Below are positions 3,207-32,734 of a DNA stretch of 64,000 bases, piece by piece (position 1 is the stretch's first letter; each line of letters begins with the position of its first letter). The stretch comes from Petrotoga mobilis SJ95. GTDB lineage: Bacteria; Thermotogota; Thermotogae; Petrotogales; Petrotogaceae. Under the pieces are notes generated by a model. It had not been told where the DNA came from. It did not search any database and saw only the letters and a list, made by a program, of their open reading frames with translations. The position numbers and the translations under genes were made by a program. The stretch covers positions 1,278,501 to 1,342,500 of the forward strand of contig NC_010003.1 in the NCBI RefSeq assembly GCF_000018605.1, written 5' to 3'.

Positions 3207-3632
3207 TCAACCTTTCAACTTTTCTTTTAGGTATTCTAAAGCTAATATATATCCATAGAATCCTAGTCCAGATATGACCCCATCGCATGAGGAAGAGGTA
3301 ACAGATGTTTGCCTAAAACTTTCCCTTGCCATGATATTTGTTAGATGAACCTCCACTTTCGGCACATTTACAATTTCTAAGGCATCTCTTATCGCATAAG
3401 AATAATGTGTATAAGCACCAGGATTGATTATTAAAGCTTCAAAATCCAATTTTTGAATTCTATCAATGATTTGACCTTCCGAATTGGATTGAAAAAACTC
3501 AACATCTATACTATTATTTTGTGCAAAATGGTTTATCTGGTCTTTTAAATCTTCGTAGGTTTCAGTTCCATAGATATCTTTAGGACGTTTCCCTAACATA
3601 TTCAAGTTAGGACCGTTTATTATCAGAATCAA
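3207..3632 (-). CDS. aroQ: 3-dehydroquinate dehydratase, type II
   Basis: Converts 3-dehydroquinate to 3-dehydroshikimate, third step of the shikimate pathway. The 141-residue length fits the type II (dodecameric) family. Motifs: GPNLNMLGKR at residues 7-16, the catalytic Tyr in DIYG (res 19-22), FQSNSEGQIID, NPGAYTHYS, and EVHLTNIMARESFR with the active-site arginine. Its start overlaps the end of aroKB by 4 bases (ATGA), so translation is coupled. Last aro gene of the operon. Confidence 0.96.
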   Translation of the reverse strand: MILIINGPNLNMLGKRPKDIYGTETYEDLKDQINHFAQNNSIDVEFFQSNSEGQIIDRIQKLDFEALIINPGAYTHYSYAIRDALEIVNVPKVEVHLTNIMARESFRQTSVTSSSCDGVISGLGFYGYILALEYLKEKLKG

Positions 3633-5116
3633 AAGATTTCACCTTCTTTTATTGTGATTTCTTCTATTATAATATTTCCTGGTGACTTTAAAATTGGCAT
3701 TTTTATTTTTTGATTTGCCCCTATTTTTTTGTCATTTGATAAATAATAATATATGTCTTTTTCATCTATTTGAATGTTTCTAACTTTTTCAGGAACAAGT
3801 GCTTCTAATGTATCTTTAATTTCTAGATAATCTTTTTCTTCCAAATATTTTTTCTTGTAAAAAAACTCTATTTCTTTGATCAAACCCCATCCAACCGATA
3901 ACCCATGTGCGATTCCTGTAGTGGCTTCAAAGGCGTGACCTAAAGTGTGTCCAAGATTTAAACAACTTCTCAACCCCGTATCTTTGAAATCTTGTTCCAC
4001 TATACGAAGTTTTTCCTCTACGGATCTTTTAATAAAAAAAGATAATTTATCTAGATTCCTGTTAAGTATTTCTTGCAAATTCTCTTTAAAATACTCATAA
4101 AAATCATTCCCTGAGATCAATGCCATTTTATAACCTTCGATTAAACCTTCTATGAATGTTTCGTCATCTAAAGATAATATGGAAAGTGGGTCTATAACCA
4201 CTTCTATGGGTAAGTTTATCGTTCCCACGACATTTTTGTATTTTTTGAAATCTATTCCATTTTTTCCGCCTATTGCAGCATCGATCTGAGAAAGAAGTGT
4301 GGTAGGGTAAAATGAAAAGTTCATTCCCCTTTTGTAAGTGGAGCCAACAAAACCTGTAAAATCGGTTATAGTTCCTCCACCAATCCCAAGAAGCAAATTA
4401 TCTCTAGAGACATTGTTTTCAAGTAGATATTCGTAAGCCCTTATTACAAGAGAGATGTCTTTTGTTTTTTCCCCGTTCGGTAAGACAAGTTTTTTCTGTG
4501 GCAGGTACTCTCCGTATAGTTCATTGACCTTTTCGCTGGTGAAAACTATGGAATCTGGGGGGGGAGACTTTAGGCTTCCTGCATTTATTGATACTTTTTG
4601 AAAAGATGAATCAATTTCAAAATGGTTTTTAATATCGTATTGGTAGAGGATTTTAGCCACCGATTCCCATTCAGTCAAATTTGTGATATCAACCGTTTTG
4701 AATTGTTCATACAATTCTTTTCTATCTTTGTAGATCTTTATAATATTTTCTTTGTTGTTTGCAAGAAGGGGCCTATTTTCTAAACTTACGCGATCTTTAA
4801 GCTTTTCAGGAGTTACTTTCAGATATATGGCATTTTCTTTTTTTAATATAGCTCTATTTTTAGCACTTAAGATTATTCCTCCTCCAGTTGATACAACGAA
4901 GGAATTAGTGTTTTCAGCTAATTTTTCGAGGATAGTACTTTCCAGTTTTCTGAAGTATTCTTCACCGTATTTTTCAAAGATATCTTTTATTTTAAGATTT
5001 TCATTTTTTTCAATTTCATCATCTGTGTCGATATGGGGTATGGAAAGTACTTTTGAAATCTTTTTTGCAAGGGTAGTTTTTCCAGACCCCATCATTCCTA
5101 CCAAGAAGATTTTCAT
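3629..5116 (-). CDS. aroKB: Bifunctional shikimate kinase / 3-dehydroquinate synthase
   Basis: A fusion of two non-consecutive shikimate-pathway enzymes in 495 residues. Residues 1-165 form shikimate kinase: Walker A GMMGSGKTT (7-15), DTDDEIE and STGGGI. Residues about 170-495 form dehydroquinate synthase: GGGTITDFTGFVGSTYKRG, YPTTLLSQIDAAIGGKNG, the metal ligands in EGLIEGYK and NLGHTLGHAFE, and HGLSVGWG. This AroK-AroB order is known from Thermotogales and supports the taxonomic placement. All catalytic motifs of both halves are intact, in contrast to the degenerate AroB-like gene at 41730-42719. It lies between aroC and aroQ. Confidence 0.95.
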   Translation of the reverse strand: MKIFLVGMMGSGKTTLAKKISKVLSIPHIDTDDEIEKNENLKIKDIFEKYGEEYFRKLESTILEKLAENTNSFVVSTGGGIILSAKNRAILKKENAIYLKVTPEKLKDRVSLENRPLLANNKENIIKIYKDRKELYEQFKTVDITNLTEWESVAKILYQYDIKNHFEIDSSFQKVSINAGSLKSPPPDSIVFTSEKVNELYGEYLPQKKLVLPNGEKTKDISLVIRAYEYLLENNVSRDNLLLGIGGGTITDFTGFVGSTYKRGMNFSFYPTTLLSQIDAAIGGKNGIDFKKYKNVVGTINLPIEVVIDPLSILSLDDETFIEGLIEGYKMALISGNDFYEYFKENLQEILNRNLDKLSFFIKRSVEEKLRIVEQDFKDTGLRSCLNLGHTLGHAFEATTGIAHGLSVGWGLIKEIEFFYKKKYLEEKDYLEIKDTLEALVPEKVRNIQIDEKDIYYYLSNDKKIGANQKIKMPILKSPGNIIIEEITIKEGEIF

Positions 5117-5127
5117 CGAATATCACC

Positions 5128-6234
5128 TTATTTCTTGAAGTATCTATCTTTTATAAGTTCAATGTTGTCGTTTCCAAATCCGTCTATAATTTCTTCCATC
5201 AATATAATAGCCAGAGTGCATTCTGTTATTACAGTCGCAGCGGGAATAATAACAGAATCAGATCTTATGTAAGGGCCTTCTTTTGATTCTTTGGTTTTAA
5301 GATCCACAGAAGGCAGAGGACTTGCAAGTGTTGAAATAGGTTTGAAGTACGTAGTAACGACTATGTTTTCTCCATTTGTTATCCCCGCTTCTATGCCACC
5401 TGCGTAATTCTTTGTTCTTCGTATAACCCCATCTTCAACTGTAAAAGGATCTTGGAATTCAGAGCCAGGTATACTTACATCTTCTTTGCCTATAAAAACC
5501 CCTTTCACAGAAGGGATCGACATAAAGTATTTTCCTATTTTTGAATCAACTCTGTTCAAAACATCGGCGTAACTTCCCAATCCAGGTTTCACATTTGTGG
5601 CGAATGTTTTTACACTGCCTCCCAAGGTGGTTGCTTTTTTTAGGGCATTTTCTTTTATTTCTTCCATCATTTTTTCAGAAATATCTTCAAAAGGACATTG
5701 AACTTCCGATTCATTTCTTTTTTGAATATAGTAAGTGAAATCTTTTTGGATTTCTTCGAACCTTTCTTCTTCAACACTGACTTTTCCGATCGATTTTACA
5801 AAACTCATCGTTGTAATACCGAAATTTTCAAGAAATTGTTTGGCAACGCTCCCTATCGCAGTGAGTACACTTGTCCAGCGCGCGCTGTTTCTTTCCGTGT
5901 ATATATTCAAGTCATCTAATCTGTATTTATACCAACAGGAATAATCCCCATGTCCAGGCCTTGGAATATGTCTTTCTTCTTTAATGGGATTTTTTGCTTT
6001 GTTGTTTATAATTAAAACCAATGGAGCTCCAGTAGTTATTCCCTCCCATAATCCGGAAACGATTATTACTTCATCTTTTTCTAATTTCATCCTGTTCCCA
6101 CGGCCGTACCCTAACTGTCTTCTTCTTAGGTCTGTGTTTATTTTTTCTATATCTATCTTTAACCCTGCTGGTATTTCTTCTATTAATCCAATCATCTGTG
6201 GACCATGTGAATCTCCAGCTATCTTTACTTGCAT
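5128..6234 (-). CDS. aroC: Chorismate synthase
   Basis: Converts 5-enolpyruvylshikimate-3-phosphate to chorismate with reduced FMN. The protein of 368 residues begins MQVKIAGDSHGPQ, the family N-terminal motif. Other signatures: RRRQLGYGRGNRMKLE, RPGHGDYSCWYKYR, ARWTS near the FMN site, GGIEAGITNGE, and TLASPLPSVD near the C-terminus. An upstream in-frame codon exists at 6270, but the internal ATG at 6234 has GAGGTG six bases before it and matches the family start, so it was chosen. It sits one base from the aroE stop. Confidence 0.96.
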   Translation of the reverse strand: MQVKIAGDSHGPQMIGLIEEIPAGLKIDIEKINTDLRRRQLGYGRGNRMKLEKDEVIIVSGLWEGITTGAPLVLIINNKAKNPIKEERHIPRPGHGDYSCWYKYRLDDLNIYTERNSARWTSVLTAIGSVAKQFLENFGITTMSFVKSIGKVSVEEERFEEIQKDFTYYIQKRNESEVQCPFEDISEKMMEEIKENALKKATTLGGSVKTFATNVKPGLGSYADVLNRVDSKIGKYFMSIPSVKGVFIGKEDVSIPGSEFQDPFTVEDGVIRRTKNYAGGIEAGITNGENIVVTTYFKPISTLASPLPSVDLKTKESKEGPYIRSDSVIIPAATVITECTLAIILMEEIIDGFGNDNIELIKDRYFKK

Positions 6235-6235
6235 T

Positions 6236-7024
6236 TTATTCACCTCGAGCAAAAGTTTTAAAAGTTTCATCGAATATTTCTGGTGTATAAATCTGCCAAA
6301 TCTTCAAATTTTCAATTGCTTGATGGTACCAAAAAGTACGTCCATCTATACATTTAATATTGCTTTCTTTTGCAATCTTTTGGAGAGGGGTATTATTGTA
6401 AACAATATCGTAAATTAGAGATAGATTGGAAAGATCGCTAACTTCTAAATTAAATGATTCTCCAAACATTCCAATAGAAGTGGCGTTTATGAAGGTTTTA
6501 GAACTAAGGATTATGCTTTGTAGGTGGTCAAAAGATTCTATTTTTATATCTATTTTTGACAAGAAAATCTTTCTTAATTTTTCTGCTCTTTCTACCGTTC
6601 GATTTACAAGAAACAACTTTTTTATACCCATTTTGTACAAAGCGTAGATGATGGATTTACTCGCACCACCCGCTCCAACTAAAAGTACTGGTTCTTGCAG
6701 CATCGATGATTTTAACGAGTTATAAAAGCCTTTCCAATCTGTGTTGTAACCCTTATTGTTGAAAATACAGTTAACCGCATTTATTTCTTTGGCTTCTTCA
6801 ACAGGTTCGACGTATTTAATCACTTTTTCTTTGAATGGAACCGTAACGTTGAGTCCATGGTAAGAATCAATATATTTGTTAATTTCATCATCAAAATTAT
6901 CAGGTGCTATAACAATATCTTCATATACAGCATCGATGTTAGCTTTTTTAAAGTATTCATTAAAAACCCTTTTTGATAAGCTTTCTTTGTGAGGGTATTC
7001 TAATAATCCGAATTTTTTCATCAT
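6236..7024 (-). CDS. aroE: Shikimate dehydrogenase
   Basis: NADPH-dependent reduction of 3-dehydroshikimate to shikimate. The N-terminal substrate domain is short and lacks the usual GHSLSP motif, showing KESLSKRVFNEYFKK instead. The catalytic lysine in GLNVTVPFKE and the aspartate in NTDWKGF are present. The cofactor-binding loop GAGGASKSIIYAL is clear, followed by NRTVERAEKL and NATSIGM. The length of 262 is typical. The start overlaps the aroA stop (ATGATG region), implying translational coupling. Confidence 0.93.
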   Translation of the reverse strand: MMKKFGLLEYPHKESLSKRVFNEYFKKANIDAVYEDIVIAPDNFDDEINKYIDSYHGLNVTVPFKEKVIKYVEPVEEAKEINAVNCIFNNKGYNTDWKGFYNSLKSSMLQEPVLLVGAGGASKSIIYALYKMGIKKLFLVNRTVERAEKLRKIFLSKIDIKIESFDHLQSIILSSKTFINATSIGMFGESFNLEVSDLSNLSLIYDIVYNNTPLQKIAKESNIKCIDGRTFWYHQAIENLKIWQIYTPEIFDETFKTFARGE

Positions 7025-8319
7025 ATACTCCTTATCTTCTCAAAAATCTCTGTAAATTCCGGGAAAGATATATTCACGCATTCAAAATTATCAATTTCTA
7101 TTGGATTATCTGCGATCAATCCGGCTATAGCAAGTGACATGGCTATTCTATGATCGTTGTAACTTTCACAAGTACAGTTTCCTCGTATTTTCTGATTGCC
7201 AATTATATCAAAACCATCTTCTTTTTCTAAAATATCTATGCCTAATTTTTTTAATTCTCTGGTGATTGCTCTTATTCTGTCTGTTTCTTTGTAACGTAAT
7301 TCTTTTGCGTCTTTTATAGTTGTTTTCCCTTTCGCTTGGGTAGCAGCTATCGCCAGTATAGGGATTTCATCGATAATCAAAGGAATCATCTCACCTTTTA
7401 TTTCAACACCTTTTAACGAACTACTTTTTACGAGTAAATCCCCAACTGGCTCATTGTTTAATGTTTTTTCGTTGATTATCTTTATATCCGCTCCCATCAT
7501 CTTCAACACGGATAATATGCCAGTTCTAGTTGGGTTGATTCCCACATTTTTTATCAATAACGTCGAGTTTTTTGTTATAAGGGCAGCAACTATGAAAAAG
7601 GATGCGGATGATAGATCACCCGGTACAAAGAACTCCCGACCTTCAAGATTTTTAGTGAGACCTCGGATAACAACAGTTGTATCTTTTTGAGCGATATCAG
7701 CACCAAAATATTTTAACATCCTTTCAGTATGATCACGAGATTTGGCGGGTTCTATTACTTGAGTTTCTCCTTTTGCATACAAAGCTGCCAACAAAATTGC
7801 AGATTTAACTTGGGCGCTTGCAACTGGAGTTTTATAAACAAGGGGGGATATATCTTTCGTCCCCAATATTGTGATGGGAGCAAATTCGCCATTTTTCCTG
7901 GCAAAAAAACGTCCACCCATTTTACTTAGTGGATCTATGACTCTTTTCATAGGCCTTTCCCTCAAAGAGTCGTCCCCTGTAATTACACTGTAAAAATTTT
8001 GAGCCGATAATACACCCATCATTAAGCGCATTGTGGTTCCAGAGTTTTTTGCGTTTAGAACGTTTGATGGTTCAATGAAATTATCCTTTCCCTTACCCTC
8101 TACAATTACCTCATCTTCGCTAATTTGTTTGATACTGGCGCCTATTGAATTTAATATATTTAACGTACTTAAGGTATCTTCAGAACTTAAAAAATTGTGT
8201 ATTTTTGTTTCACCTTCAGCGAGGGAACCAATGATTAGTGCCCTGTGTGATATTGATTTATCACCTGGTAGGGTGATCTCTGCATTTATATTTTCTGTTG
8301 GAGTTACTTCAATTTTCAT
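7021..8319 (-). CDS. aroA: 3-phosphoshikimate 1-carboxyvinyltransferase (EPSP synthase)
   Basis: Transfers enolpyruvyl from phosphoenolpyruvate to shikimate-3-phosphate. The 432-residue protein shows LPGDKSISHRALIIGSLAEG at the N-terminus, LNAKNSGTTMRLMMG, SAQVKSAILLAAL, the GDLSSASFF segment, ELRYKETDRI and YNDHRIAMSLAIAG, all diagnostic. A ribosome site (GGAGG) precedes ATG. The gap of 180 bases to tyrA contains a GC-rich repeat, the only sizeable break inside the aro operon. Confidence 0.97.
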   Translation of the reverse strand: MKIEVTPTENINAEITLPGDKSISHRALIIGSLAEGETKIHNFLSSEDTLSTLNILNSIGASIKQISEDEVIVEGKGKDNFIEPSNVLNAKNSGTTMRLMMGVLSAQNFYSVITGDDSLRERPMKRVIDPLSKMGGRFFARKNGEFAPITILGTKDISPLVYKTPVASAQVKSAILLAALYAKGETQVIEPAKSRDHTERMLKYFGADIAQKDTTVVIRGLTKNLEGREFFVPGDLSSASFFIVAALITKNSTLLIKNVGINPTRTGILSVLKMMGADIKIINEKTLNNEPVGDLLVKSSSLKGVEIKGEMIPLIIDEIPILAIAATQAKGKTTIKDAKELRYKETDRIRAITRELKKLGIDILEKEDGFDIIGNQKIRGNCTCESYNDHRIAMSLAIAGLIADNPIEIDNFECVNISFPEFTEIFEKIRSI

Positions 8320-8374
8320 CTTTACCTCCTTGTACTTCGTTTTTTGCCTCCCCTAGAAATTTTGAAAACTTTAT

Positions 8375-8445
8375 AAATAGCGCCCTTTCACCCCGCTCCC
8401 CACCCTTCTAAGGAAGGCACCCCGTACCCCTTTAAAAATCTAAAT
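8375..8445 (-). repeat. GC-rich palindromic repeat copy
   Basis: A single copy (GCGCCCTTTCACCCCGCTCC on the plus strand, then CACCCTTCTAAGGAAGG) in the tyrA-aroA gap. The remaining bases of this 180-base gap show no gene or convincing terminator. Confidence 0.75.
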
Positions 8446-8498
8446 CTAATTCTTGAAACTCGTTTTAGTACCCCCTTGTCCATTTCAACACATTGCCT

Positions 8499-9341
8499 TT
8501 ACAACTCAAATTTGCTGATTTTGATCAAATCATCTTTTATTTCATTGTATTTATCTTCGATTAAATCTTTCTTGAAGGCAGTTAACTCTTTTTCAAAATT
8601 CTCTATGGCACGCAGTATATTCTCTTTGTTTTGTTTGAATATATCGATCCACATTTGGGGATCGCTTTTTGATAACCTTGTTGTGTCTTTAAAACCAGTT
8701 CCGACTAATTTTAGATAATTTTCATTATCTTCTTTTAAATTCATCAGAGTTTTTACTAGATAATAAGCAATTATCTGCGGCAGATGACTTGTTGTTGAAA
8801 GAATTTCATCGTGAGTTTTAGCATCTATTATTATTGGAATGGCTCCGATTTTTGTGATCAACCTTTCAAACTTATTAAAATATATTTGGTCACAATTAGC
8901 ACTTTTTATCAATACATATTTTTTGCCTTTGAATAAATTCGCCTTGGCGTTTAATGGACCAGACTTTTCTGATCCTGCCAATGGATGACCTCCTATGAAA
9001 TTGACCCTTTTGTTTTTAAAAGTATCAAAGAGTTGCATAATTTCATATTTAGTACTACCCACATCAGTTACAACTGTATTTTCTTTTACTAGACTAATTG
9101 TATCATGTAAAATACTTTTTATACTTTCTACTGGCGTTGCAAAAATTATTAAATCCGCTTTTGAAATTTCTGATATTTTGGCAGGTTCATCGATGGCTCC
9201 TAACTTTAAAGCTTCTTTTAAAGAGTTACTATCGATATCGTATCCAATGATATTTTTAACTTCTTTTGTTTCTTTAAAGGCTAGAGCTAATGAAGTTCCA
9301 ACCAATCCAGTGCCAACAATTATTGCGGTATTGAATAACAT
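8499..9341 (-). CDS. tyrA: Prephenate dehydrogenase
   Basis: NAD-dependent oxidative decarboxylation of prephenate toward tyrosine. The Rossmann motif GTGLVGTSLALAF lies at residues 11-23. The family motifs DVGSTK, GGHPLAGSEKSG and STTSHLPQIIAYYL (catalytic histidine) follow. The length of 280 matches the monofunctional enzyme without a chorismate mutase domain or ACT domain. No chorismate mutase or prephenate dehydratase gene is seen in the window, so those Phe/Tyr steps must be encoded elsewhere. Confidence 0.93.
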   Translation of the reverse strand: MLFNTAIIVGTGLVGTSLALAFKETKEVKNIIGYDIDSNSLKEALKLGAIDEPAKISEISKADLIIFATPVESIKSILHDTISLVKENTVVTDVGSTKYEIMQLFDTFKNKRVNFIGGHPLAGSEKSGPLNAKANLFKGKKYVLIKSANCDQIYFNKFERLITKIGAIPIIIDAKTHDEILSTTSHLPQIIAYYLVKTLMNLKEDNENYLKLVGTGFKDTTRLSKSDPQMWIDIFKQNKENILRAIENFEKELTAFKKDLIEDKYNEIKDDLIKISKFEL

Positions 9342-9376: not shown

Positions 9377-10396
9377 TCAGGCTAAGATTTTACTGTCTAT
9401 TTCTAATAAGGCTTTTATTTGATCCATTAATTCACTGAATTGCTCAAAATTTAGAGATTGCTTACCGTCAGAGAGAGCGTTTTTAGGATCCGGATGGACT
9501 TCAATTATTAACCCATCAGCACCAGCTGCTACAGCAGCTTTTGATAGAGGAGCGACGTACCTCCAATCTCCACTGGCGTGACTTGGGTCGATTATAATAG
9601 GTAAATGGCTGTATCTTTTGATTACAGGTATTGCACTGATGTCCAAGGTATTTCTGGTTTCATCAGTAAATGTTCTAATTCCTCTTTCACACAGTATAAC
9701 TTGGTTGTTCCCTTCAGAAATAATATATTCTGCTGACATTAAAAATTCTTTGTATGTAGCTGATAGACCCCTTTTAAGTAAAACTGGCTTGTTGAGCTTA
9801 CCTACTTCTTTTAAAAGCACAAAATTTTGCATGTTTCTTGTTCCTATCTGTAAAACATCAGCATATCTTGAAACCAACTCGACCTCTCTGGTGTCCATAA
9901 CTTCTGTAACTATCTTTAGACCAGTTTCTTCACTTACTTCTTTGAGAATTTTTAATCCTTCTTCTTTTAAGCCTTGAAAAGAATATGGAGAAGTTCTTGG
10001 TTTATAAGCTCCACCTCTTAGGAATTTAACCCCTTTCTCTTTTAAGAATAGAGCGGTTTCTAAAACCTGTTCTTTACTTTCTACTGCACAAGGTCCAGCA
10101 ATCGTTAAAAAATTTTCTCCTCCTATTTTTATCCCTCCTATGTCGTATATTGAATCTTTAGATTTGAATGTTCTACTTGCTAATTTGAAAGGTTGAGTTA
10201 TCTCTACAACCCTTTCAACCCCCGGAAATGTTTCAATGTTGCTTAAAATGTATTCCCTGTCACCTTCCCCTACCACCCCAACAATCGTGTGATTTTCTCC
10301 TTTATCAGGATGAGCTTTAAAACCTACTTCTTCCACCTTTTTAATGACATTTCTAACTTCTTCTTCTGTTGCATTTTCCTCCATTACGATTACCAT
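9377..10396 (-). CDS. aroF: 3-deoxy-7-phosphoheptulonate synthase, type I beta with N-terminal regulatory domain
   Basis: First step of the shikimate pathway, condensing phosphoenolpyruvate and erythrose-4-phosphate. Residues 1-70 form a ferredoxin-like (ACT-like) regulatory domain ([20 protein letters not shown]). Residues 90-335 form the barrel: [53 protein letters not shown] and [16 protein letters not shown]. This is the arrangement of the Thermotoga enzyme, which is feedback-inhibited through the N-terminal domain. ATG is preceded by GGAGGTG with a spacing of 7. It is the first structural gene after the aro attenuator. Confidence 0.96.
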
Positions 10397-10478
10397 CAGA
10401 ATTCACCTCCGAATTTAAAAAATTTTTTATCGCCCTGTACCCCTTTAAAGAGCAAAATCTTGTTGCTAAAACTGTTAT

Positions 10479-10514
10479 AAAAAAAATAGGTGCCTACTAA
10501 AAGAGTAGACACCC
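10479..10514 (-). terminator. aro attenuator terminator
   Basis: On the minus strand GGTG-T-CTACT pairs with AGTAG-G-CACC around a CTTTT loop, followed by a run of eight T. The 5' arm of this hairpin is also the 3' arm of the long antiterminator, so the two structures exclude each other. Confidence 0.85.
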
Positions 10515-10578
10515 ATTTTGGAATCTTTGTGGACTATGTTTTCATACGACAAAACAAAGCCACCAAAATGGGTGTCTT
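10507..10578 (-). promoter_or_regulatory. aro antiterminator helix
   Basis: AGACACCCATTTTGG (10562-10576 region) is perfectly complementary over 15 bases to CCAAAATGGGTGTCT, extended inward by CTTTGT with ACAAAG after a 3-base bulge. The 5' arm starts just downstream of the Tyr-Tyr-Trp-Tyr-Phe codons of the leader peptide. A ribosome stalled there leaves the arm free; a moving ribosome covers it. Confidence 0.8.
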
Positions 10579-10632
10579 GCTAAAATACCAATAATATTTA
10601 TTTTCATTTTCGATTAAGACCTTTGTAACCAT
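10534..10632 (-). CDS. Aromatic leader peptide (32 residues)
   Basis: A short open reading frame, ATG at 10632 and TAG at 10534, with GAGGAGAG about nine bases upstream. It begins MVTKVLIENENK and continues YYWYFSK at residues 13-19. The five aromatic codons TAT TAT TGG TAT TTT are consecutive and lie immediately before the antiterminator arm. The stop codon lies in the antiterminator loop. The position between a consensus-like promoter and the aroF attenuator, and the aromatic codon run, fit a leader peptide sensing Tyr, Trp and Phe supply. The sequence evidence is direct; regulation is inferred. Confidence 0.85.
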   Translation of the reverse strand: MVTKVLIENENKYYWYFSKTPILVALFCRMKT

Positions 10633-10664
10633 TTGTGCTCTCTCCTCAACTTTTCTTTAAATTT

Positions 10665-10693
10665 ATTTTATCAAGAAAAAATATTTTTGTCAA
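10665..10693 (-). promoter_or_regulatory. Promoter of the aro operon
   Basis: Perfect -35 TTGACA (10688-10693), 17-base spacer, -10 TAAAAT (10665-10670). The transcript would start about 25 bases before the leader peptide ATG. Confidence 0.85.
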
Positions 10694-18852: not shown

Positions 18853-18932
18853 TTAAAAAAGGGCATCCCTGAAGGGATGCCCTTTGATTACTTTTTAGGC
18901 AGATTCACACAGGCATCCCTATCCGAGATGCC
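18853..18932 (-). promoter_or_regulatory. trp attenuator (regions 1 to 4)
   Basis: Region 1 GGCATC (inside the third Trp and His codons) can pair with region 2 GATGCC. Region 2 AGGGATGCC can pair with region 3 GGCATCCCT. Region 3 GGGCATCCCT pairs with region 4 AGGGATGCCC, a terminator followed by a T run. The leader stop codon adjoins region 2, so a ribosome at the stop masks region 2 and permits termination, and a ribosome stalled at the Trp codons frees region 2. This is the enterobacterial trp logic. Confidence 0.9.
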
Positions 18933-19008
18933 ACCACCAATTAATTATATTTATTGTATTGTTTTTTAACTTGGGTGATTTAAAAAAAAGCTTTTCTTGA
19001 TCAAACAT
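18919..19008 (-). CDS. trpL: trp leader peptide (29 residues)
   Basis: ATG at 19008, TAG at 18919. The peptide begins MFDQEKLFFKSPKLK and ends INWWWHLG. Three consecutive TGG codons lie four codons before the stop and overlap region 1 of the attenuator. A short GGGG stretch lies seven bases before ATG. No other Trp codons occur in it. The position after a consensus promoter and directly before the attenuator leaves little doubt. Confidence 0.92.
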   Translation of the reverse strand: MFDQEKLFFKSPKLKNNTINIINWWWHLG

Positions 19009-19395: not shown

Positions 19396-19645
19396 TGTTA
19401 TCTTATCATATAACTCTCTTATAATGAATTTTATAGCGCCCTTCCCCCGCTCCCCACCCGTGTGGAAGAGGGACCTGCGGTCCCTTTAACCCTGTTTTTC
19501 ACACATAAGGAAAAGGATCTTTATTAGCACCCTTCTCCGGCTCCCCACCCGTGTGGAAGAGGGACCTGTGGCCCCTTTCCCCACTTTTCAACCATAAGGA
19601 AATGGGCCTGTTCCTTTTTACCCCGCGGCCCACCCGTTTTAGGAA
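19396..19645 (-). repeat. GC-rich repeat block with one arm of a 95-bp direct repeat
   Basis: Two to three copies of the GCGCCCTTCCCCCGCTCC unit (plus strand), each with a GGGACCTGCGGTCCC or GGGACCTGTGGCCCC palindrome. Bases 19434-19528 recur without a mismatch at 21194-21288, on the other side of the antitoxin gene. No gene is visible from 19376 to 19923; 19645-19923 is AT-rich and shows nothing I can name. Confidence 0.85.
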
Positions 19646-32519: not shown

Positions 32520-32550
32520 AATAATAAGAAAATATATTTTTCTCATTTTT

Positions 32551-32718
32551 AGCGGCTCTCCACGTTCTTCACGTGACAGTTATGCAGGTATTCCCCACAT
32601 ACCCAGAAGTCCGAAGATGAGGGTTTTCTTCTTACTTCTTCGGCAACCTCGCCTTTCGCTTCTTCCAAATTACCCTCTTTTAAAAGAAGAAGTTACTATT
32701 CTCGGTTGCGCCTCCGCT
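32551..32718 (-). promoter_or_regulatory. Lysine riboswitch (L box)
   Basis: P1 is AGCGG (32714-32718) with CCGCT (32551-32555). Conserved L-box blocks are seen: GGAGGCGCAACC, GAAAGGCGAGGTTGCCGAAG, and CTGTCACG followed by CGTGGAGAGCCGCT. When lysine binds, the GTGGAGAG strand stays in the aptamer and the terminator forms; without lysine it can invade CTCTCCAC. It controls the whole operon from asd onward. Confidence 0.93.
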
Positions 32719-32734
32719 TTAAATAATTAATTTT

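Follow-up and report, generated by a model that had tools for sequence, protein, structure and literature searches.

A predicted leader-peptide attenuator with an aromatic codon run upstream of the aro operon of Petrotoga mobilis, and related leaders in the Thermotogota

The window analysed here is the whole stretch of 64,000 nucleotides from Petrotoga mobilis SJ95 (NC_010003.1, positions 1,278,501 to 1,342,500). On its minus strand a short leader with an aromatic codon run is directly followed by the seven genes aroF-tyrA-aroA-aroE-aroC-aroKB-aroQ (Table 1). The start codon of aroF lies 82 nt downstream of the T run that closes the leader. The spacer between terminator and aroF (window 10397-10478), compared with its counterparts in L002-L005, is of variable length in close relatives and contains GC-rich stretches, e.g. 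GGGGGCGAAGGGGCGCT, which resemble window sequence near 19430-19640 and are possibly a small repeat element. The gene pheA is located away from the aroF operon, and no short aromatic frame with a terminator was seen in front of it. A lysine riboswitch (RF00168, 103.8 bits) lies on the minus strand at 32545-32724.

The promoter, ribosome site, 32-codon frame, aromatic run, antiterminator and T-run terminator described in the initial annotation are all present where it had placed them. The two arms of the antiterminator form 15/15 perfect pairs, and the 5' arm begins 4 nt past the Phe codon, i.e. the antiterminator adjoins the codon run; antiterminator and terminator are mutually exclusive helices. 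The terminator of the aroF leader is the single terminator-like site in 901 bases, with 0.3 expected. Its folding energy is far below that of shuffled sequences when the downstream 95 nt, which contain the terminator half, are considered (z = -7.2), and the entire leader reaches z = -2.5. Moreover, pairing of the segment behind the codon run with the RNA downstream surpasses that in 300/300 dinucleotide shuffles. For Petrotoga-type and Thermotoga-type leaders, and for the majority of the others, the corresponding pairing beats nearly all of the 300 shuffles; group names of this kind, Mesotoga-type included, serve as convenient labels. This test left out L011 and L012, where the terminator was misplaced, and L029, L125 and L023, where it was not found; these five leaders were read by eye instead.

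Table 1. Features of the aroF leader, the genes behind it and the trpE leader; positions refer to the window.
Feature	Position	Strand	Basis or remark
Promoter TTGACA-17-TAAAAT, sigma-70-type, extended -10 TG	10665-10693	-	consensus match 11/12
Shine-Dalgarno GAGGAG of the leader frame	10642-10647	-	9 nt ahead of ATG 10632
Leader peptide frame, 32 codons, MVTKVLIENENKYYWYFSKTPILVALFCRMKT*	10534-10632	-	kept in Petrotoga-type relatives
Tyr-Tyr-Trp-Tyr-Phe codons 13-17, proposed stall site	10582-10596	-	read from the frame; conserved
Antiterminator 5' arm (segment 1) AGACACCCATTTTGG	10563-10577	-	encodes the residues directly following the run
Antiterminator inner hairpin	10525-10559	-	CTTTGT 10559-10554 with ACAAAG 10530-10525
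Leader stop codon TAG, in the inner-hairpin loop	10534-10536	-	sequence
Antiterminator 3' arm (segment 3) CCAAAATGGGTGTCT	10507-10521	-	overlaps the terminator 5' arm
Intrinsic terminator hairpin	10483-10519	-	16 pairs
Terminator T run	10479-10482	-	four further T, following on from those of the 3' arm
aroF (DAHP synthase carrying an N-terminal ferredoxin-like domain), first operon gene	9377-10396	-	NCBIfam
tyrA, aroA, aroE, aroC, aroKB, aroQ	3207-9341	-	NCBIfam; frames overlapping or closely spaced; presumed operon
trpE leader frame MFDQEKLFFKSPKLKNNTINIINWWWHLG*, separate putative Trp attenuator	18919-19008	-	internal control
trpE-leader terminator GGGCATCCCTTCAGGGATGCCC, then T run	18861-18882	-	sequence

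From its layout and its relatives we conclude, with a probability of roughly 0.87, that the aroF leader is a ribosome-mediated transcription attenuator. If charged tRNA-Tyr, and probably also tRNA-Trp, were short, the ribosome would stall in the first codons of the aromatic run and leave segment 1 free, which would then pair with segment 3 around the inner hairpin; the terminator would thus be prevented and the polymerase would enter the seven-gene operon. If the aromatic tRNAs were charged, the ribosome would pass segment 1 and stand at the stop codon, within the loop of the antiterminator, as the terminator arms emerge, so that the antiterminator would be blocked and transcription would end. 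We infer that the leader is transcribed and translated, that ribosomes stall on it, and that it responds to Tyr first, then to Trp and little to Phe.

The order of response is suggested by a model in which a ribosome was masked at each codon and the remaining RNA was folded at 55 °C with varied footprints. The modelled termination probability, P(term), comes to about 0.15-0.16 when the ribosome stalls at Tyr13, and likewise at Tyr14, where it rises to as much as 0.87 only at a 15-nt footprint. A stall at Trp15 gives 0.16-0.24 with footprints of up to 10 nt, Tyr16 yields mixed values, Phe17 gives 0.87-0.94 with every footprint, and a ribosome at the stop codon 0.92-0.94. On account of these values, Tyr would be the most robust signal and Trp the second, with Phe weak. 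The proposal that shortage of any aromatic amino acid relieves termination is thus borne out by the model for Tyr13 and Tyr14 and, less robustly, for Trp15 at the smaller footprints, and is not supported for Phe17, where little relief is predicted.

The initial annotation had also cautioned that, with the stop codon in the antiterminator loop, relief would depend on timing rather than on a ribosome parked at the stop. Timing would indeed still matter, as the antiterminator could re-form if the ribosome left the stop codon before segment 3 is made, although this may be delayed by a small hairpin folding locally over segment 1 (-5.5 to -7.4 kcal/mol). The position of the stop codon itself, however, plausibly belongs to the design, because a ribosome sitting there would cover the loop and hold the long arms apart, thereby favouring termination. 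In the absence of a ribosome the modelled P(term) is 0.15 in this genome and 0.53-0.93 in some relatives. Since the ribosome-free model favours read-through, termination in P. mobilis would need a ribosome in place, and since the ribosome-free values differ among relatives, the prediction of read-through as the default is confined to P. mobilis and its closest relatives.

Equilibrium folding clearly separates the two states in part of the leaders only (L001, L003, L004, L169). In L006 and L008 it favours the terminator everywhere, and the states differ only in how far the shared arm is occupied while the last arm is still to be made; in several relatives, L006 and L008 among them, this occupancy is about 0.65-0.80 for an early stall versus 0.05-0.34 for a ribosome at the stop codon. 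Because equilibrium folding is insufficient outside the clearly separating leaders, the argument for attenuation there rests on the order of synthesis.

All Petrotoga-type genomes compared (L001-L009, L112) have the same leader ahead of aroF, with the runs YYWYF, FYYWYF, YYYYYWF, YYYWF or YYYYY, i.e. the aromatic codons whose conservation had been proposed as a check are retained throughout. An inner helix related to CTTTGT/ACAAAG is present in L006, L008, L009 and L112. In the alignment of the Petrotoga-type leaders the antiterminator is paired in 9-10 of 10 sequences at each position and the terminator in 8-10 of 10. As both helices hardly vary, compensatory change, the second check that had been proposed, is almost untestable within this group; it is seen in the Thermotoga- and Mesotoga-type leaders. 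Across 14 aligned leaders of these two types, helix 1:2 and the terminator are 99.6% paired, compared with 93.9% in shuffles, with two-sided changes at 6 pairs and a covariation score of 0.334 versus 0.215, a value that 0/500 shuffles reached, and sliding the pairing partner by 1-3 columns leaves at most 53% paired. These leaders are organised as a chain of pairings, 1:2, 2:3 and 3:terminator, with segment 1 directly before the stop codon. By inspection, a ribosome at the stop codon would mask segment 1, so that segment 2 would pair with segment 3 and the terminator would be free, whereas a stall at Tyr would let segment 1 pair with segment 2, leaving segment 3 free to block the terminator.

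A DAHP synthase match was obtained in 62/103 Thermotogota genomes. With fixed criteria, a frame with an aromatic run was detected in 39 of the 45 regions that lie ahead of full-length aroF genes in the Thermotogota, compared with 2.15 in dinucleotide shuffles, and in 11 of 77 regions of a comparison set, obtained by an AroF scan of named genomes almost all from other phyla, compared with 1.35 in shuffles; the rows of both counts are not phylogenetically independent. Within the Thermotogota, aroF genes with the N-terminal domain nearly always have an aromatic-run leader, which comes in several unrelated sequence types, and copies without this domain mostly have none. Thermotoga-type genomes carry NYYYFWFNRGTCP, and ENYWYYGCARFMVCRP, DNYAYYYYYHHPRL, SWINAYYYNNRSICL, INNFWWFYYAGVHPRPPAVLR* and others, with unrelated flanks, are found elsewhere in the phylum. 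The aroF product of one of the genomes compared (G093) matches the DAHP synthase structure 1rzm, which is from Thermotoga maritima, over its full length; the genome is that of T. maritima or very close to it. The attenuation of the whole aro operon by a leader peptide, as initially proposed, is strongly supported by this phylum-wide comparison of sequences.

Short frames with an aromatic run and a terminator behind them likewise lie upstream of DAHP synthase in L072, L057, L044, L104 and L098, which belong to several deltaproteobacterial genomes and one actinomycete, e.g. LYCFYYFYFYPGEG and LFYYCFYYYPLRG. The arrangement therefore extends beyond the Thermotogota.

The aroF leader has counterparts in front of other genes. 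A search of the genome with patterns of the YYWYF type was uninformative in that control patterns match about equally often, but a sequence model built from the aroF leader retrieved a second, paralogous element at C1:1175028-1175163, which is also present in relatives; matches of the model on the opposite strand reflect the palindromic terminator and were disregarded. The paralogous leader (L169:679-864) encodes NNQYFYFWYWKDT with the run Tyr-Phe-Tyr-Phe-Trp-Tyr-Trp, has a terminator, and is followed by genes for a TrpX-like substrate-binding protein, a permease and an ATPase. The TrpX-like protein scores 222 bits with NF041285, below the curated cut-off of 390, and well above the cut-off of PF04392. 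The ABC transporter is probably an aromatic amino acid transporter. In 40 Thermotogota genomes TrpX-like homologues mostly come with aromatic leaders, e.g. FAYAYWWFRGMPSS or YYYWYGKGIH. The trpE leader in the window, which has the look of a classical trp attenuator, shares with the aroF leader the two-helix logic, in which the post-run segment pairs with a terminator arm; it differs in having three Trp codons only and its stop codon where the antiterminator arm begins. Its Trp-Trp-Trp is kept in 9/9 Petrotoga-type genomes. The trpE leader of L151 (genome G040), GWWYRARC, resembles the aroF leaders of its own family (EYNFWYYHRTRFMVCEV) in the style of its antiterminator, which suggests duplication followed by retuning of the codon run.

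Codon content was counted in one or two hand-chosen leaders per genus. Trp occurs in 5/5 trpE leader runs, Tyr in 1/5 and Phe in 0/5; transporter leader runs contain Tyr in 12/12, Trp in 12/12 and Phe in 11/12 cases; and among 23 aroF leader runs Tyr is found in all, Trp in 13 and Phe in 16. The codon content of the leaders thus follows the function of the operon. Tyr is the sole aromatic residue common to all 23 aroF runs and leads most of them, the modelled relief is most robust at the two Tyr codons that open the P. mobilis run, and tyrA is part of the operon, whereas pheA lies outside it. These observations would fit a leader that is effectively a sensor of Tyr alone, with the Trp and Phe codons as tolerated bystanders. 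We regard this as possible, though unlikely, given that relief is also predicted for a stall at Trp15 with the smaller footprints and that the runs of several lineages begin with Phe or Trp (L016, L113, L126). Equal sensing of all three aromatic amino acids, such that lack of Phe alone would also relieve termination, appears distinctly improbable. The P. mobilis run does contain all three residues, and Phe is frequent among the aroF runs; however, many of these leaders lack Phe or Trp, and in the Petrotoga run the Phe codon comes last and adjoins segment 1, so that a ribosome stalled there would mask the start of the arm, in line with the high P(term) modelled at this codon.

Two further explanations dispense with tRNA charging as the signal or with the frame altogether. 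KTPILVPLFCR, the stretch of residues behind the run, is conserved across the Petrotoga-type leaders, as might be expected for a TnaC-like arrest by the nascent peptide in which a free aromatic amino acid serves as the ligand, but segment 1 and the inner hairpin fix these residues at the RNA level, and elsewhere they are wholly different (RTRFVVCEV, NRGTCP, NNRSICL), with the aromatic run retained; as these residues change from one lineage to another we rejected this mechanism, which we consider highly implausible. A riboswitch, T-box or switch operated by an RNA-binding protein, with the short frame being incidental, would fit the alternative hairpins as such and has a very small chance of being correct, as the aromatic codon run is the main feature that the different leader types have in common. 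No Rfam family reaches its gathering score over the aroF leader, and the T-box model RF00230 gives no match there and none in 21 relatives. The Phe_leader family RF01859 was rejected as well (16.7 bits versus a gathering score of 55, E 2.2), the sub-threshold matches looking like chance.

The reading that we prefer for the aroF leader, ribosome-mediated attenuation, can be compared with known systems. The attenuators trpL and pheL of enterobacteria each respond to one amino acid, precede end-product branches and have a four-segment layout. In these leaders (RF01859 and relatives), as is proposed for Petrotoga, it is a stalled ribosome that decides whether the antiterminator or the terminator forms; the Petrotoga leader differs in that the antiterminator arm follows directly upon the run, the stop codon lies in the loop and the ribosome-free model predicts read-through. 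Sensing of all three aromatic amino acids by one peptide had initially appeared unusual, which does not hold, as mixed aromatic runs are usual in the Thermotogota and Corynebacterium has Phe-Tyr-Phe. PMC11802643 describes this aroR-aroF leader of C. glutamicum (Neshat et al. 2014) as responding to Phe, not to Tyr. As in Petrotoga, a mixed aromatic run there precedes a DAHP synthase operon, and stalling raises transcription; AroR belongs to another phylum, has a shorter run and responds to Phe, whereas for the Petrotoga leader the residue always present is Tyr, and a weak role is predicted for Phe. By analogy, the indifference of AroR to Tyr despite its Tyr codon would count against Tyr sensing here. 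In Acholeplasma, uORFC-13-1 is a predicted upstream frame with promoter and ribosome site found exclusively before aroF (PMC8632094). Going by its text description, it resembles the Petrotoga leader in that an aromatic codon adjoins a terminator upstream of aroF; it differs in having Phe codons only and another structure, and its 24 sequences come only from Acholeplasma and environmental samples. Thus, leader-peptide control of DAHP synthase is already known (Corynebacterium AroR) or predicted (Acholeplasma).

The phylum-wide extent of the aromatic leaders in the Thermotogota, by contrast, appears to be unreported. A survey from 2010 limits the leader-peptide systems known at the time to Proteobacteria and Actinobacteria and adds Firmicutes (PMC2965389). 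The annotation paper of T. maritima mentions unspecified 'leader sequences' (PMC3636130), so that an earlier notice is possible; we found no report of leader-peptide attenuation in Thermotogota in the literature searched, with subscription papers mostly outside its scope. Taken together, we lean towards the view that the Thermotogota possess an old, phylum-wide leader-peptide regulon that may comprise aroF and trpE operons as well as TrpX-like transporters, with the codon mix tuned per operon and the common pathway responding mainly to Tyr, and that the Petrotoga form would terminate only with a ribosome in the antiterminator loop, read-through being the default without translation. As three leaders with different aromatic mixes occur in one genome, they offer a clean test of how codon identity and antiterminator distance determine the amino acid that is sensed. 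If this view is true, it would explain how aromatic biosynthesis and uptake are jointly controlled, given that no T-box was found in 21 genomes, and a dense and well-conserved set of such leaders in a thermophilic phylum would imply that the control of gene expression by coupled transcription and translation is old or easily re-invented.
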